A stretch of 64,000 nucleotides of DNA from Streptomyces sp. CB02980 (lineage in GTDB: Bacteria > Actinomycetota > Actinomycetes > Streptomycetales > Streptomycetaceae), in the NCBI RefSeq assembly GCF_014451325.2, contig NZ_JACSCH020000006.1:1-64000 (forward strand), read 5' to 3'. Made by a program: the position numbers and the translations under genes. Below, piece after piece: positions 32,323 through 38,081 of the stretch (position 1 is the stretch's first letter; every line of letters begins with the position of its first letter). A model generated the notes under the pieces. The model worked only from the letters and a program-made list of their open reading frames with translations, ran no database searches and was not told the origin of the DNA.

Positions 32323-33291
32323 CTAGCCGGCCTGGGGGTTCTCCAGGTCGTACGCCTCCGTCAGCTCCCGGCAGCGCTTCACGTCGCCGGCCATCGCTTC
32401 GAGCAGGTCGTCCAGGGTGTCGAACTTCAGCATCCCGCGGACGTACGCGAGGAAGTCCACGGCGACGTGCAGCCCGTACAGGTCGAGGCCCTCACGGTCG
32501 ATCGCGTAGGCCTCCACCGTCCGCTCCGTGCCGTCGAACTGCGGGTTCGTGCCGACCGAGATGGCCGCGGGCATCCGCTCCCCGTCGGCCGTCAGCCAGC
32601 CGGCGTAGACGCCGTCGGCCGGGATGGCGGTGTGCGGGAGGGTCTCGACGTTGGCCGTCGGGAAGCCCAGTTCGCGGCCGCGCTGCGCGCCGCGGACCAC
32701 GATGCCCTCGACGCGGTGCGGACGGCCGAGGATCTCGCCGGCCCCGGCCATGTCGCCCTCGGCGACGAGCCGGCGGGTGAGAGTGGAGGAGAAGGGGTCG
32801 CCGCCGCCCGCCGTGCCGCTGACGAACAGGTCGATGACCTCGACCTCGTAGTCGTAGGTGGCGCCCAGCTCGGACAGGAAGGCGACGTTTCCGGCGGCCC
32901 GGTGTCCGAAGCGGAAGTTGGGGCCCTCGATGACGGCCTTCGCGTGCAGCTTGTCGACGAGCACCTTGACGATGAAGTCGGCCGGGGACAGCTGGGAGAA
33001 CTCGGCGGTGAACGGCAGCACGAGCACCGCGTCCACGCCGAGGCCGGCGATCAGCTCGGCGCGCCGGTGGTGCGGGGCGAGCAGCGGCGGGTGGCTGCCG
33101 GGCCGCACGACCTCGGAGGGGTGCGGATCGAAGGTGACCACCACGGAGGGGACCCCGAGTTCCCTGGCGCGCTCGACGGCCCGCCCGATGATCAGCTGGT
33201 GCCCGCGGTGCACACCGTCGTAGGAGCCGATGGTGACGACGCTGCGCCCCCAGTCCTGGGGGATGTCCTCCAAGCCACGCCAGCGCTGCAC
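32323..33291 (-). CDS. ribF: Bifunctional riboflavin kinase/FAD synthetase
   Basis: Makes FMN from riboflavin and then FAD from FMN. The 322-residue protein has an N-terminal nucleotidyltransferase domain with the GSYDGVHRGH motif (HxGH) near 22-31 and a PHHRR segment, and a C-terminal riboflavin kinase domain with GRELGFPTANV. GTG 33291 follows GAGGAG and gives (M)QRWRGLEDIPQDWGRSV, the usual streptomycete start. It is the last gene of the nusA-infB region, 32 bases after the pseudoprotease gene, and gives the cell the FAD that ThyX and acyl-CoA dehydrogenases need. Confidence 0.95.
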   Translation of the reverse strand: MQRWRGLEDIPQDWGRSVVTIGSYDGVHRGHQLIIGRAVERARELGVPSVVVTFDPHPSEVVRPGSHPPLLAPHHRRAELIAGLGVDAVLVLPFTAEFSQLSPADFIVKVLVDKLHAKAVIEGPNFRFGHRAAGNVAFLSELGATYDYEVEVIDLFVSGTAGGGDPFSSTLTRRLVAEGDMAGAGEILGRPHRVEGIVVRGAQRGRELGFPTANVETLPHTAIPADGVYAGWLTADGERMPAAISVGTNPQFDGTERTVEAYAIDREGLDLYGLHVAVDFLAYVRGMLKFDTLDDLLEAMAGDVKRCRELTEAYDLENPQAG

Positions 33292-33322: not shown

Positions 33323-36300
33323 TTACGCAGGTCTAAGACTGCCATGCCCACGGCCGTCGGTTCGCATCGGCATGGAAGTGCCGTGGCTCCGCAGCGCCCG
33401 GAGGGTCTCCGGACCGAGCAGCGGCGCCCACTCGGCGGGGTCGCCGACCGCCCAGCGGGCGAGCAGCGTGGCGAACCCGGGCCGCGCGCGGACGTGCCCC
33501 GCGAGGGCCGGGTCGAGCAGCCTCGCGCCTTCGGGAGTACGGGCCCACAGGGCGCCGACCCGGTGGGTGAGCGCCCGGGTCCGCGGCTCACTGCGCCGCT
33601 CGGCGCCGTCCGCGGCGGTCTCCAGGAGGGCGGCCAGGACGGTGAACTCCCCCGTCTCGGCCTCGTACCGCTCGTGCTCCAGGAGTACGTCGAGGAGTTC
33701 GGCCCGCAGATGCCGGGAGGCGCCGGTGCCGGGCGCGGCGAGTACGGGGGCGAGGGCGCGGCGGACCCGCGCGGGACGGCCCCGGATCAGGCCGGAGACC
33801 AGCGGGAAGAGGACGGCCCGTGCGGCCGGGCCGTACTCGAAGCGCCGGTCGACGAAGTCGGCCACGTGCGCGGCGCCCTCGGGGTGGCGGGCGACGTATC
33901 CGCGGACGAGGGAGGCCACCCGACGGGCGAGCGCGGGCGTGTCGACGTCGGCGAGCGCCCGCAGGGCGGCGGCGGGGGCCTCGCCGGTGCCGTCCAACCG
34001 GGCCCCGAAGGCGGCGAGGACCGGTCCGGGGTCGGCCGCGAGGGTCTCGACGAGGGCGCTCGCGGGCACCCGGGGCTCGGCGAGGGCGCGGGGCAGGTGG
34101 CGGTCCCGGGTGTGCGGGTCGCGGATCAGCAGGCCGAGGGCGGCGCCGTGGAGGGTCTGGTCGCCGGGGCGGGCGAGCAGGGCCAGGGCGGCGAAGCGGA
34201 GGAGTTCCCGGTCGGTGGGGCGGGTGGCGTGACCGGCGACGAGCTGCCCGTACGCGGCGGCCGCGACCCGCCGCTCCGGGCGCCCGTCGTCGTGGGCCCA
34301 GCGGTCGACGGCCCGGCAGACGGCGGAGGGCTCGTCCTCGGCGAGGGCGGCGAGGAGGCCGTCGGCGAGCGGGTGGGCGGTGGCGACGAGCGCCTCGCAC
34401 AGATCGTCGACGGCGAGTGCCCGATGGGTGTGCAGCAGGGCCTGGGCGGCGGTGGCGACGGTCGCGCCCGGGGCGGCGGGGATGGCCCGGTCGTCGGCGA
34501 ACCAGCGGCAGAGCAGCGGCTGCACGCCCCTGGGGTCGGCGGCGAGCATCCCGGCGACGGCGGCGAGGGACCGCTCGCCGCCGGGGCCCTCGCCGGGGCC
34601 CTCGCCACGGCCCTCGCCGCGGTCCTCGCCGGGCGGCGGGTCGGCGGGGGCGAGCCGCCGCAGCAGATCGATCCGCTCGTCCTCCCCGAGCGGCAGCCCC
34701 AGCCAGAACTCGGGCCCGAACGCGGCGAACACCGCGTGCCGCCCCCCGCGGGCGTCGATCCGGCCGGCGCCCGCCCCGTCCGGCTCGACGCCTGCCCCGA
34801 TCCGGTCGGCGCCTGCCCCGATCCGGTCGGCGAGCAGCCGCAGGACGGGGAGGTACGGCCGGGGGTCCGGCAGCCTCCGCACGCTCTCGCCGAACAGCCG
34901 GGCGGCCCACCAGGGCCCGTCGCCGGAGGATCCGCCCGCCTCGTCGGCGTACCGCCCGAGAGCCTCGGCAAGCACGGCGAGCCGGGGGGCGAGGGCGGCC
35001 GGGCCGCGCTCCCGGTGGAGCAGCAGGAGCGCCTGGAGGACGGGGCCGATGCGGTGACGCGGGACCGGCGGGGGCGCTTCGTCGGGGGTCCGCTGCCGGG
35101 GGACGACGGGCGTCGCGAGCGGGTCGCCGGATCCGGCGGGTCCGGCAGGTCCGGTCGCGTCCTCAGGGCCGGCGAGAGAACCGAGACCCAGGGAGAGCAG
35201 CGCCTCCAGGGCGCCGTCCAGGTCCAGGTGGGCCGCCTGCACCCAGTCCGCCAGCTCCTCGTGGGCGAAGCGGTAGCCGGAGCCGGCCGGGACGAGCAGT
35301 CCTTCGGTGAGGACCGCCGAGGCCCAGCCCTCCCGCCAGGGGAAGAGCTCCTCGAAGGAGACCCGGTCGAGGACGCCGTGCCCGGGGCCGAGGCAGCGGC
35401 GGGCCGCCTCGTGGACCTGGCCGGTGACGCGGGCGGCCAGGCGTCGTACGGCGGTCCCCGGGGGCAGGGGCCGGGAGCCCGCGGCGATCCGGACGGCGAT
35501 CCGCAGGCACATCAGGTCGAGGTACGCGGTGAAGATCTCCTCGCGCCCCGGCCGCCCGGGGACGTCCGCCGGCAGTGCGGCCCGCACCTCGGCGAGCAGC
35601 CGCAGGGCCAGCGGGTGGCGGGCGTCGGCCTCGGCGAGGTCCTTCTCCCCGAGCCCGTACCCCTCGCGTACGGCCTGGGCCTCGGCCGCGGAGTACGGCC
35701 CGAGGACGAGGGCGGCCGGCAGTCCGCCGGGCACCCCGTCCCGGGGGCCCGTCGCCGGCCGGTGCAGCGCGCCCGGCCGGTAGAGGGCGCCCGCGCGTTC
35801 CCAGTGCTCGGGGCGGCAGGCGGTGACGAGGTGGACGTGGTGGGCGCGGAGCCAGTCCTCGGTGGCGGTCGTCCAGTCGGCGAGCCGGTGGACGAGGTGC
35901 GGCGACATCTCCTCGGGGCCGTCGAGGACGACGAGGAGCGGGCGGCCCGCCTCGTGGGCGAGGGCGGCGGCCCGTTCGGGGGTGGCGGTGGTGGTGTCGC
36001 CGAGCGCCCCGGAGGCGGCGACGATCCGGCCGGCCTGCTGGAGTGCCCGGCCGACGGCCTCGGCGAGTGAGCGGTCCTCGGCGCGCAGGTCGGCCCCGCG
36101 CAGCCGGACGGTGGGAGCGGGCGCGACGCCCCGGGCGCGACGGGCGCAGAGGGCGGCGAGGGCGGTGGTGCGGCCGGTGCCGGGGGCGCCGACGAGGGCG
36201 AGGACCGGCGCCTCGCCCGCCGTGAAGCGGGCGAACTCGCGGACGCACTCGGGGCGTTCGACCGGCTCGGGCCAGGGGTCGGGGTCCCGTACGGGGCCGG

Positions 36301-36955
36301 TGGAGGTGGCGGTGAGTTCCAGGATTCCGGCGAGGTTGAGGTCGGGTCCGTAGGCGGGGACGGTGGCCGCGTTGCGCCGGAGGAGGGCGGTGAGGGGGCC
36401 TTCGGGGCGCAGTCGCACCGCGTATCCGGCGGCCGGGCGGTCGCCGTGCAGGGCGGTGCCGAGGACGGCGAGGACGGTGCCGGTGGTGGTGTCGAGGACG
36501 GGGCCGCCGGCGGCCTGTCCGCCGAGGCGGAGGGCCTCGGCGCCCTCGGTGCCGATGGCGAGTTCGAGGGCGTCGGCGAGCGCGTGGAAGCGGTCGGTGG
36601 CGGTGTACGTGACGGCGGCGGGGCCGAGCACGCGCGCCTCGCGCCAGCCGTGGGCGGCGATCCGTACGTATGTGCCGGGTTCGATCTCGGTTCGGGTCGC
36701 GAGCGGCAGCGGCCGTACGTCGAGGCCTTCGGTCCGTACGAGCGCGAGGCCGCTCTCCGGCAGCGGGGTGACGGCCTCGGCCTCGGCGAGCCAGGTCCGG
36801 TCGCCGGGGGCGTGCAGGACGACACGGCTGAGCCCGTCGACGGCTTCGTGACTGGTGACGACCGTTCCGTGGTGGTCGGCGAGGAATCCGGTGCCGCGAG
36901 GCCGGCCCGCCAGATCGCAGATCCGCACCAGCGTCGCCAGGTCCCCGCGTCCCAT
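33323..36955 (-). CDS. Degenerate trypsin-like/P-loop NTPase multidomain protein
   Basis: 1210 residues. Residues 1-190 resemble a trypsin-like protease: GTGFL at 21-25 and the His site TSHEAV (H36) are kept, but the Asp site reads ESGLAL (68-72) and the Ser site reads QAAGGPV (A149 where GDSGGPV is expected). Residues 245-420 form a STAND-like P-loop domain with Walker A GAPGTGRTT at 256-264 (Arg for Lys) and Walker B LLVVLDGPEE near 340-349. The rest is helical, Ala/Arg/Leu-rich, perhaps HEAT-like. So both enzyme centres look impaired. ATG 36955 is chosen by homology of the N-terminus; no strong ribosome binding site is seen. It lies between truB and ribF. Confidence 0.8.
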   Translation of the reverse strand: MGRGDLATLVRICDLAGRPRGTGFLADHHGTVVTSHEAVDGLSRVVLHAPGDRTWLAEAEAVTPLPESGLALVRTEGLDVRPLPLATRTEIEPGTYVRIAAHGWREARVLGPAAVTYTATDRFHALADALELAIGTEGAEALRLGGQAAGGPVLDTTTGTVLAVLGTALHGDRPAAGYAVRLRPEGPLTALLRRNAATVPAYGPDLNLAGILELTATSTGPVRDPDPWPEPVERPECVREFARFTAGEAPVLALVGAPGTGRTTALAALCARRARGVAPAPTVRLRGADLRAEDRSLAEAVGRALQQAGRIVAASGALGDTTTATPERAAALAHEAGRPLLVVLDGPEEMSPHLVHRLADWTTATEDWLRAHHVHLVTACRPEHWERAGALYRPGALHRPATGPRDGVPGGLPAALVLGPYSAAEAQAVREGYGLGEKDLAEADARHPLALRLLAEVRAALPADVPGRPGREEIFTAYLDLMCLRIAVRIAAGSRPLPPGTAVRRLAARVTGQVHEAARRCLGPGHGVLDRVSFEELFPWREGWASAVLTEGLLVPAGSGYRFAHEELADWVQAAHLDLDGALEALLSLGLGSLAGPEDATGPAGPAGSGDPLATPVVPRQRTPDEAPPPVPRHRIGPVLQALLLLHRERGPAALAPRLAVLAEALGRYADEAGGSSGDGPWWAARLFGESVRRLPDPRPYLPVLRLLADRIGAGADRIGAGVEPDGAGAGRIDARGGRHAVFAAFGPEFWLGLPLGEDERIDLLRRLAPADPPPGEDRGEGRGEGPGEGPGGERSLAAVAGMLAADPRGVQPLLCRWFADDRAIPAAPGATVATAAQALLHTHRALAVDDLCEALVATAHPLADGLLAALAEDEPSAVCRAVDRWAHDDGRPERRVAAAAYGQLVAGHATRPTDRELLRFAALALLARPGDQTLHGAALGLLIRDPHTRDRHLPRALAEPRVPASALVETLAADPGPVLAAFGARLDGTGEAPAAALRALADVDTPALARRVASLVRGYVARHPEGAAHVADFVDRRFEYGPAARAVLFPLVSGLIRGRPARVRRALAPVLAAPGTGASRHLRAELLDVLLEHERYEAETGEFTVLAALLETAADGAERRSEPRTRALTHRVGALWARTPEGARLLDPALAGHVRARPGFATLLARWAVGDPAEWAPLLGPETLRALRSHGTSMPMRTDGRGHGSLRPA

Positions 36956-37114
36956 GGTGTCGACGGTAGGTCGCCGGTGATCACACGGAGGACCACGACG
37001 AAGGAACGCGCCCCCTGTCACTCCCCCCTTCACTCCGAGCGCCTCCCTGATCGGGTGGTTCTTCGGCGTTCCGCCGGACAGGCTCTCGCAGGGGGAGGCA
37101 AAGGGGGGAGACAA

Positions 37115-37148
37115 GTGAGGGCGGGCACGCGCGCGTGCCCGCCCTCAC
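37115..37148 (-). terminator. Perfect 34-base palindrome terminator after truB
   Basis: GTGAGGGCGGGCACGCG at 37115-37131 and its exact complement at 37132-37148 form an uninterrupted palindrome 33 bases past the truB stop. It can fold as a hairpin with up to 15 base pairs and probably ends the rimP-truB operon, so the large gene after it should have its own promoter. Confidence 0.85.
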
Positions 37149-37181
37149 TGTGAGCCGACGATGGGCTCCGAACCGCTCGGA

Positions 37182-38081
37182 TCAGCCGAAGACGGCGAGG
37201 CTCTTGGCCTTGCCCCGCTGGTCCTCCACGAGCGCCAGCAGCGTCCCCTCGGGCCCGAAGACCGCGACGGGACCCGCCGGGTACTCCGGCATCTCCAGGC
37301 GGACGCCGTTGAGCAGCAGTTTGGCCCGCTTCTCGTCGACGTCCCACCGGGGGAACGCCGCCGTGGCCGCGTCGGCGACCGGCATGACCGTGAGCTCCTC
37401 CTGGAGCTGGTCGAGCGTCTTCGCCGAGTCCAGCTTGTACGGGCCGACCCGGGTGCGGCGCAGCGCGGTCAGGTGCCCGCCCACGCCGAGGCCCGCGCCG
37501 AGGTCCCGGGCGAGCGCCCGGATGTACGTACCGGAGGAGCAGACGACGGAGACGACCAGGTCGACGACGGGGGTGCCGTCCTCGGCGGTCGCCTCACGGA
37601 CGTCGTACACCTGGAAGGAGGAGACGGTGACCGGGCGGGCCGGGATCTCGAACTCCTCGCCGCCGCGCACGCGCGCGTACGACCGCTTGCCGTCGATCTT
37701 GATCGCGGAGACCTTCGACGGCACCTGCATGATGGCACCGGTCAGCTCGGCGACGCCCGCGTCGATGCCCTCGCGGGTCACCTTGGATGCGTCGACGGAG
37801 GCCGTGATCTCGCCCTCGGCGTCGTCGGTGACCGTCGTCTGGCCCAGGCGGATGGTGCCCAGGTACTCCTTCTCGGTCAGCGCGAGGTGACCGAGGAGCT
37901 TGGTCGCCCGCTCCACGCCGAGGACGAGGACGCCGGTGGCCATGGGGTCGAGCGTGCCGGCGTGGCCGACCCGGCGGGTCTTCGCGATCCCCCGCATCTT
38001 GGCCACGACGTCGTGCGAGGTGAAGCCCGACGGCTTGTCGACGATGACAAGGCCGTCGGGCGTGCGTGCTGCGTTGCTCAT
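37182..38081 (-). CDS. truB: tRNA pseudouridine-55 synthase
   Basis: Converts U55 of the tRNA T-loop to pseudouridine. The 299-residue protein has the TruB motif GHAGTLDPMATG with catalytic Asp at 45, preceded by KPSGFTSHDVV and followed by the Tyr motif KEYLGTIRLG; a C-terminal PUA-like domain follows. The ATG overlaps the rbfA stop (ATGA), so the two are coupled. The gene ends at a long palindrome. Confidence 0.96.
   Translation of the reverse strand: MSNAARTPDGLVIVDKPSGFTSHDVVAKMRGIAKTRRVGHAGTLDPMATGVLVLGVERATKLLGHLALTEKEYLGTIRLGQTTVTDDAEGEITASVDASKVTREGIDAGVAELTGAIMQVPSKVSAIKIDGKRSYARVRGGEEFEIPARPVTVSSFQVYDVREATAEDGTPVVDLVVSVVCSSGTYIRALARDLGAGLGVGGHLTALRRTRVGPYKLDSAKTLDQLQEELTVMPVADAATAAFPRWDVDEKRAKLLLNGVRLEMPEYPAGPVAVFGPEGTLLALVEDQRGKAKSLAVFG

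Follow-up and report, generated by a model that had tools for sequence, protein, structure and literature searches.

The window analysed here is a 64,000-nucleotide stretch of Streptomyces sp. CB02980 (contig NZ_JACSCH020000006.1, positions 1 to 64,000). Its minus-strand gene at 33323-36955 encodes a protein in which an S1/trypsin-like domain is followed by a NACHT-type STAND module and then by an alpha-solenoid. This protein is probably an NLR-like (STAND/NACHT) switch of the Streptomycetaceae that holds ATP and hydrolyzes it slowly, and whose pseudo-trypsin domain binds rather than cuts. The Walker A lysine is replaced by arginine (Arg262) nearly throughout the family, no homologue harbors a complete trypsin triad, and both domains are under purifying selection. 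A Walker A Lys-to-Arg exchange is known as a laboratory mutation from RAD51 K133R (excerpts of PMC3155514), but an entire NLR-like family carries it naturally here. Together with the altered protease domain, this provides a natural test of whether NLR-like switches still function when hydrolysis is inefficient and the effector is not catalytic.

Unless otherwise stated, counts refer to 155 homologous N-terminal regions, which combine partly overlapping loci from a pattern scan and whole-genome searches and are not independent rows. Reduction to 149 regions at 99% identity or 123 at 90% gives the same picture.

The NACHT-Type Module and Its Arginine P-Loop

The module and its motifs are located as follows.

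35186..36262, minus strand: NACHT-type STAND module with winged helix, approximately residues 232-590 (AlphaFold2 (AF2) model, fold matches, and motif counts)
36164..36190, minus strand: Walker A GAPGTGRTT, Arg262 replacing Lys (R in 154/155)
35909..35938, minus strand: extended Walker B LLVVLDGPEE with D345, E348, and E349 (D345 in 153/155; EE in 153/155)
35813..35818, minus strand: sensor-1-like C380-R381 (R381 in 138/155)
35609..35617, minus strand: H447-P448-L449, a GxP-like proline motif (P448 in 153/155)
35261..35269, minus strand: winged-helix F563-x-H565 with a sensor-2-like His (H565 in 141/155, F563 in 147/155)

Arg262 persists in 148/149 regions once near-identical rows are removed, and Lys occurs at this position in 0/155. 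All 30 control loops from actinobacterial NACHT proteins, four of them from this genome, carry Lys; these controls are the matches at E 1e-5 in 40 genomes, and their selection with the Pfam NACHT model has a built-in preference for Lys. The Walker A Lys is thus retained in other NACHT proteins encoded by this genome. The loop deviates from GxxxxGK[ST], with Arg at the Lys position nearly family-wide, and the protein is therefore a NACHT-type variant, not a canonical NACHT ATPase.

An earlier sequence-only reading of this gene described the P-loop domain as degenerate. This is too strong, as the lysine is the main departure: most members retain the glycines of the P-loop, the D-x-x-E-E of Walker B, the sensor-1 Arg, the proline motif, and the His of the winged helix. 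On the tree, no change falls at P-loop glycines 256, 259, and 261 or at E348, and one each falls at R262 and D345. Walker B follows part of the pattern hhhhD[GAS]hDE, with Pro at the "h" position, and the EE form is also given for certain human NLRs in excerpts of PMC2323615, the source of the NACHT/NLR hallmarks used for the motif counts. The winged-helix His lies within the expected FxH patch.

In the predicted model, residues 201-591 match NLRC4 (4kxf; Z 17.6, root-mean-square deviation (rmsd) 6.0, 321 aligned) and residues 206-586 match NLRP3 (7vtp; Z 17.4, rmsd 4.8, 310 aligned), and the predicted fold is that of a NACHT-winged helix module. The AF2 model of residues 1-601 was built from a 22-sequence alignment (mean predicted local distance difference test score, pLDDT, 81), and AF2 models were compared with known structures by Foldseek and VIA-align. 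Pfam places AAA_22, AAA_16, nSTAND5, and NACHT within residues 239-388, all below threshold, and the window protein is at best a divergent NACHT member.

L007 (Streptomyces hydrogenans) is the only locus that lacks Arg262. Its P-loop reads GEPGSGPVA with the end of the motif missing, and the L007 pair has the highest values of omega (the nonsynonymous to synonymous rate ratio) observed, 0.46-0.57. The frame may have slipped locally in L007, or this copy may be under relaxed selection.

The Pseudo-Trypsin Domain

The domain and its former catalytic positions are located as follows.

36356..36943, minus strand: S1/trypsin-like (HtrA-type) pseudoprotease domain, approximately residues 5-200 (Trypsin_2, AF2 model, and HtrA/Deg fold matches)
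36845..36850, minus strand: H36-E37, Glu in the catalytic His column and His one residue upstream (sequence alignments)
36749..36751, minus strand: G69 in the catalytic Asp column, ESGLAL (alignment)
36509..36511, minus strand: A149 in the catalytic Ser column, QAAGGPV (alignment)

Pfam Trypsin_2 covers residues 21-164 above its cut-off (E 7e-9) and is also found in 22/22 members tested. In the predicted model, residues 1-194 adopt the double beta-barrel S1 fold and match HtrA/Deg proteases (best 3qo6; Z 18.8, rmsd 3.3, 180 aligned). The His-Asp-Ser triad with GxSGGP is missing, and the domain is classed as a pseudoprotease rather than a peptidase.

The sequence-only reading had reported ESGLAL at the Asp site, QAAGGPV with Ala149 at the Ser site, and Arg262 in Walker A, all of which are seen. 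Its statement that the catalytic His is kept as His36 is one residue off, since sequence alignments place Glu37 in the catalytic His column. The motif is T34-S-H36-E37-A-V-D-G here and T-x-A-H-V-V-D-G in HtrA-type proteases. When the solved HhoA (T-N-A-H-V-V-D-G) is aligned to the family profile, the motif is gapless with high posterior marks and the catalytic His falls on Glu37. The same register is obtained when the family profile is aligned to L211, an intact-looking protease of another actinobacterium, and in a profile-profile comparison by hhalign. A profile of eight intact-looking trypsin-like domains, in which 7/8 training His residues occupy the His column and 1/8 lies elsewhere, gives a hit in 151/155 rows, of which 149 reach that column; it falls on position 37 in 147/149 and on 36 in 2/149. 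The residues aligned are E (136), Q (10), and D (1), with H in the two rows placed on 36. The L211, eight-domain, and hhalign tests all include L211 and are mutually non-independent. Together with HhoA, all favor Glu37, and on these alignments His36 is rejected as the catalytic His.

The eight-domain profile places the Asp column at position 69 in 149/149 placed rows and the Ser column at 149 in 123/140, the others falling at 147 or 148. By these alignments, all three catalytic positions are replaced in the window protein (E37-G69-A149). Across the family, position 36 is H in 149/155, and position 37 is E (139), Q (13), D (2), or a gap (1). Position 69 is G (105), D (41), N (5), or A (4), and position 149 is A (78), S (30), V (20), T (16), I (3), R (3), P (3), G (1), or C (1). 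A canonical H-D-S triad with His at column 37 occurs in 0/155, and G-[DN]-S at 147-149 in 0/155. Whether Ala149 and Arg262 are fixed, as the sequence-only reading asked, has a divided answer: Arg262 nearly is, Ala149 is not, and the common feature is the absence of a complete triad. Close homologues with an intact GDSGGP and GKT would have refuted that reading, and none was seen. Decay of this one copy alone is rejected, as neither Lys262 nor a canonical triad occurs in any homologue.

On the tree of N-terminal regions, parsimony counts 30 changes at position 69 and 23 at 149. Positions 36 and 37 changed five times each, and positions 150 and 152 did not change. Thus, the acid and nucleophile sites are free to vary, whereas the H-E pair and the surrounding G-x-P of the former active site are retained. 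A metal-binding role like that of MamO was considered; H36 is conserved and H124 less so (135/155).

Selection and Inheritance

Nei-Gojobori omega in 13 close pairs is 0.06-0.57 for the S1 region, 0.12-0.49 for the NACHT region, and 0.13-0.46 for the C-terminal region. All three regions are under purifying selection, and the dead protease domain is constrained like the rest. The sequence-only reading of a protease-STAND fusion whose protease part is dead but conserved is supported. A slow decay, in which a formerly active enzyme is losing its function everywhere, is very improbable. The free variation at positions 69 and 149, the copies split between frames in L164, L166, and L168, and the several genomes without the gene would fit such fading, but omega is well below 1 in all three regions of the 13 pairs, and H36, E37, G150, P152, R262, D345, and E348 are nearly unchanged.

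At 96 loci where the two neighboring genes, truB and ribF, are almost complete, protein distances correlate with truB+ribF distances (Pearson 0.83 for S1 and 0.80 for NACHT) and are on average 2.3-2.6 times as large. The protein tree has 47 strongly supported splits and the truB+ribF tree 32; 27 are common to both, and 1/47 is contradicted. Plasmid and phage collections gave no match to the family. Descent is mostly vertical. A mobile defence gene is disfavored by this descent and by the lack of a plasmid or phage match.

The protein could still be a defence receptor, which we regard as rather unlikely. As a bNACHT/Avs-like bacterial NLR, it would recognize phage proteins and activate a partner via the pseudo-trypsin domain. 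Trypsin and STAND/NACHT modules recur in bacterial conflict systems, as described in excerpts of that literature, and an intact-looking trypsin-NACHT protein is encoded in the same genome. However, the gene occupies a chromosomal site beside housekeeping genes and descends mostly vertically (although vertical descent is compatible with defence), the plasmid and phage collections are devoid of matches, and PADLOC offers no credible model (best OloA, E 0.0077).

The C-Terminal Solenoid

33341..35059, minus strand: C-terminal alpha-solenoid, HEAT/ARM-like (AF2 model nearly all helical, mean pLDDT 84)

The best structural matches of the C-terminal half are HEAT/ARM proteins with a moderate Z of up to 11.3, values that are common for helical repeats by arrangement alone. 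Pfam finds no family in this half at E 0.01 in 21 members, and an NCBIfam search of the window protein gave no credible match. The only PADLOC match, the weak one to OloA, covers residues 852-939 in the helical C-terminus.

Proposed Mechanism

In the proposed switch, the C-terminal alpha-solenoid would sense a ligand, and the NACHT module would bind ATP in a pocket that is conserved apart from the exchange of the Walker A Lys for Arg262. Slow turnover is proposed because the RAD51 K133R P-loop, taken as an analogue for K-to-R P-loops, binds ATP but hydrolyzes it poorly; in excerpts of PMC3155514, this variant has normal ATP binding, is hydrolysis-defective, and still forms D-loops efficiently. 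By this analogy, the Arg262 NACHT module may hold ATP and turn it over slowly, which would make the active state long-lived or require that it be reset by other means. The pseudo-trypsin domain would bind a partner, either a peptide or a protein, and leave it uncut. Inactive trypsin domains have been proposed as binding modules (excerpts of PMC7159879).

A narrower version can be put forward tentatively, and with some doubt. In it, the protein is a vertically inherited chromosomal NLR-like receptor with a family-fixed, hydrolysis-slow Arg P-loop and a pseudo-trypsin output, His36-Glu37 forms the working site, and the role lies in physiology rather than in mobile defence.

Several observations weigh against the switch as proposed. 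In NLRP3, K232A cuts hydrolysis 3-fold and abolishes signaling (excerpts of PMC9633759), and a switch with a changed Lys may therefore simply be inactive. The abstract of the same paper links less hydrolysis to more specking, and the NLR evidence therefore cuts both ways. In the open-licence literature searched, neither biochemistry on this family nor a K-to-R case in a NACHT protein was found. Pfam NACHT reaches only E 0.074 and 13.3 bits against a cut-off of 26.7, with 4/22 members matching at E 0.01, and a profile search of solved sequences gave proteases only and no NACHT chain. The sensor-1 Arg is absent in 17/155 and the winged-helix His in 14/155, one of these 14 being a gap row. The choice of Glu37 over His36 is a matter of sequence alignment alone, and a one-residue structural shift is possible. 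Finally, both D69 and S149 are kept in 7/155 rows.

The truB-ribF Locus

33323..36955, minus strand: coding sequence of the pseudo-trypsin/NACHT/alpha-solenoid protein, 1210 aa (many homologues begin at the corresponding Met, e.g., MGRGDLATLV)
37182..38081, minus strand: truB, upstream neighbor (gap to the gene 226 nt)
32323..33291, minus strand: ribF, downstream neighbor (starts 31 nt after the stop codon of the gene)
37114..37149, minus strand: 16-bp perfect hairpin, terminator-like, without a T run (begins 32 nt past the truB stop)

The gene is a single open reading frame of 1210 codons that starts with ATG (MGRGDLATLV) and ends with TAA. It is present as one copy, the sole whole-protein match in a search of its genome being the gene itself. 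We take SCO5710 to be its locus tag in S. coelicolor; no paper naming SCO5710 was found in the open-licence literature. Among the matches listed from the same literature, none on truB, ribF, trypsin, and NACHT concerns the gene, and none describes STAND proteins with a naturally occurring arginine in Walker A.

truB lies upstream in 149/155 loci and ribF downstream in 100/155. Nine truB rows scored as downstream are long open frames overlapping truB and were counted as upstream. truB is not seen in 6/155: the pieces of L010 and L035 end within 300 bases and those of L111 and L148 after 1.5 kb, and in L164 and L165 ribF follows the gene, yet no truB occurs within 3.6 and 2.2 kb upstream, respectively. 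An insertion or rearrangement upstream of the gene is possible in these last two. The 55/155 loci in which ribF is not seen are mostly short pieces and were not checked one by one.

All 24 genomes without a family-grade match harbor truB (24/24), and in 22/24 ribF starts about 70-415 bp after the end of truB. In the remaining two, ribF lies nearer 1 kb away (L194) or is not seen in the piece (L195). Because ribF closely follows truB in 22/24, the most likely history is that truB and ribF were an old pair into which the gene was inserted in the Streptomycetaceae.

The hairpin may mark the end of the truB transcript, in which case the gene may share a transcript with ribF from its own promoter. 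Long perfect stems after truB are found again in close relatives, and a stem of at least 9 bp within 120 nt after truB is present in 42/149 loci with the gene vs 3/24 without it. A promoter and terminator consensus scan gave no match.

The conserved site could instead reflect a housekeeping or developmental regulator with a NACHT scaffold, tied to its neighbors (ribosome maturation, tRNA modification, flavin synthesis) or to multicellular growth. We judge this role unlikely as well. It gains from truB upstream in 149/155 and ribF downstream in 100/155 (with short pieces in most others), from presence in 41/45 genomes of the genus, and from protein distances that average 2.3-2.6 times those of truB+ribF. 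However, 8/16 other genera sampled in the family have no family-grade match and yet retain truB and ribF, so the gene is not needed for their function. In the window, a hairpin separates truB from the gene, and L164 and L165 lack a nearby upstream truB. On the evidence at hand, the defence and housekeeping roles are about equally likely, and nothing speaks clearly for or against the stress or defence role mentioned in the sequence-only reading. The truB-ribF site and the empty-site relatives allow straightforward deletion and swap tests in laboratory Streptomyces.

Taxonomic Range and Homologue Sample

When whole genomes were searched with the N-terminal profile, 41/45 Streptomyces genomes had a family-grade match. 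Among the other genera of the Streptomycetaceae, 34/51 genomes and 8/16 genera have one, as do 9/10 Streptomyces in the same sample. Genomes from other families of the order gave 0/15, and genomes of the class outside the genus gave 0/137, with 7 showing weak single-domain matches of at most 41 bits; such weak hits are excluded from the genome tallies. Only part of the first-look candidates was scored per genome (at most 9 in the search of the class and 22 in each of the other two), and absence means "not found". The sequence-only reading had assigned the gene to a core neighborhood. The position between truB and ribF agrees with this, but the sampled genomes yielded no family-grade match beyond the Streptomycetaceae, and not every genome within this family has the gene.

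The pattern scan, with patterns from the window protein, returned the best 80 of 133 loci and is skewed to close relatives. By title, its loci belong to Streptomyces, Streptantibioticus (Streptomycetaceae), and [Kitasatospora], with one exception. L013, titled Microtetraspora glauca NRRL B-3735 (Streptosporangiaceae by name), is a Streptomyces-like copy with 64% identity, and its organism name may be wrong. In L164, L166, and L168, the homologue is split over two reading frames, as in recent pseudogenes or sequencing errors.

Of 175 loci gathered, 20 are outside the set of 155. L089, L118, L119, L120, L128, L129, L130, L133, and L149 repeat other regions; L121 and L125 have a weak S1 match only; L122, L123, L124, L126, L127, L131, and L132 are weak single-domain matches without a hit; and L065 and L079 are C-terminal pieces only. 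L010, whose first part is missing, is kept among the 155 with gaps. A 78-row residue table excludes L010, L065, and L079.

Comparison with Known Systems

The same genome encodes a second trypsin-NACHT protein (L207:691-4098, P0002, 1136 aa, contig C26), which shares the order Trypsin_2 then NACHT. In contrast to the window protein, it lies at another locus and has intact-looking TCAHVL, RLDAAL, and GLSGGP motifs as well as GDAGAGKT and LLVDGLDE. The two align with GTGRTT on GAGKTT and DGPEE on DGLDE, and the best BLASTP match (E 0.58) is not significant. The window protein might act as a decoy or dominant-negative subunit that binds partners or substrates of this or another active trypsin-NACHT or HtrA protein in the cell. 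Such roles are proposed for inactive trypsin domains in excerpts of Kaur et al. (PMC7159879), and an intact-looking candidate partner exists elsewhere in the genome, but the lack of significant similarity between the two makes this improbable.

NLRC4 and NLRP3 resemble the NACHT-type module in fold, in the extended Walker B with EE, and in sensor 1, the proline motif, and the winged-helix His (excerpts of PMC2323615). They differ in the Walker A residue, which is Lys there and Arg here, and in their effector and receptor domains.

The vWA-MoxR ternary systems (excerpts of PMC7159879 and PMC8195603) also place inactive trypsin domains and inactive STAND modules in signaling. They employ vWA and MoxR partner proteins, whereas a single polypeptide beside truB and ribF is found here. 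The gene does not group with iSTAND, as the adjacent genes are truB and ribF with no vWA or MoxR neighbors, the rest of the genome not having been searched.

LypA of Caulobacter (CARD, trypsin, ATPase; PMC13236601, in excerpt) likewise joins a trypsin domain and a divergent ATPase domain in one protein. In contrast to the pseudo-trypsin protein, it requires its own catalytic Ser and has a CARD and a partner, LypB.

MamO differs in that its protease domain binds metal and is accompanied by a C-terminal transporter domain, with no NACHT module described in excerpts of PMC4794232. Its structure (5hma) is among the best matches of the S1 domain (Z 18.3), and, like the window protein, MamO retains an HtrA-fold pseudoprotease for another job.

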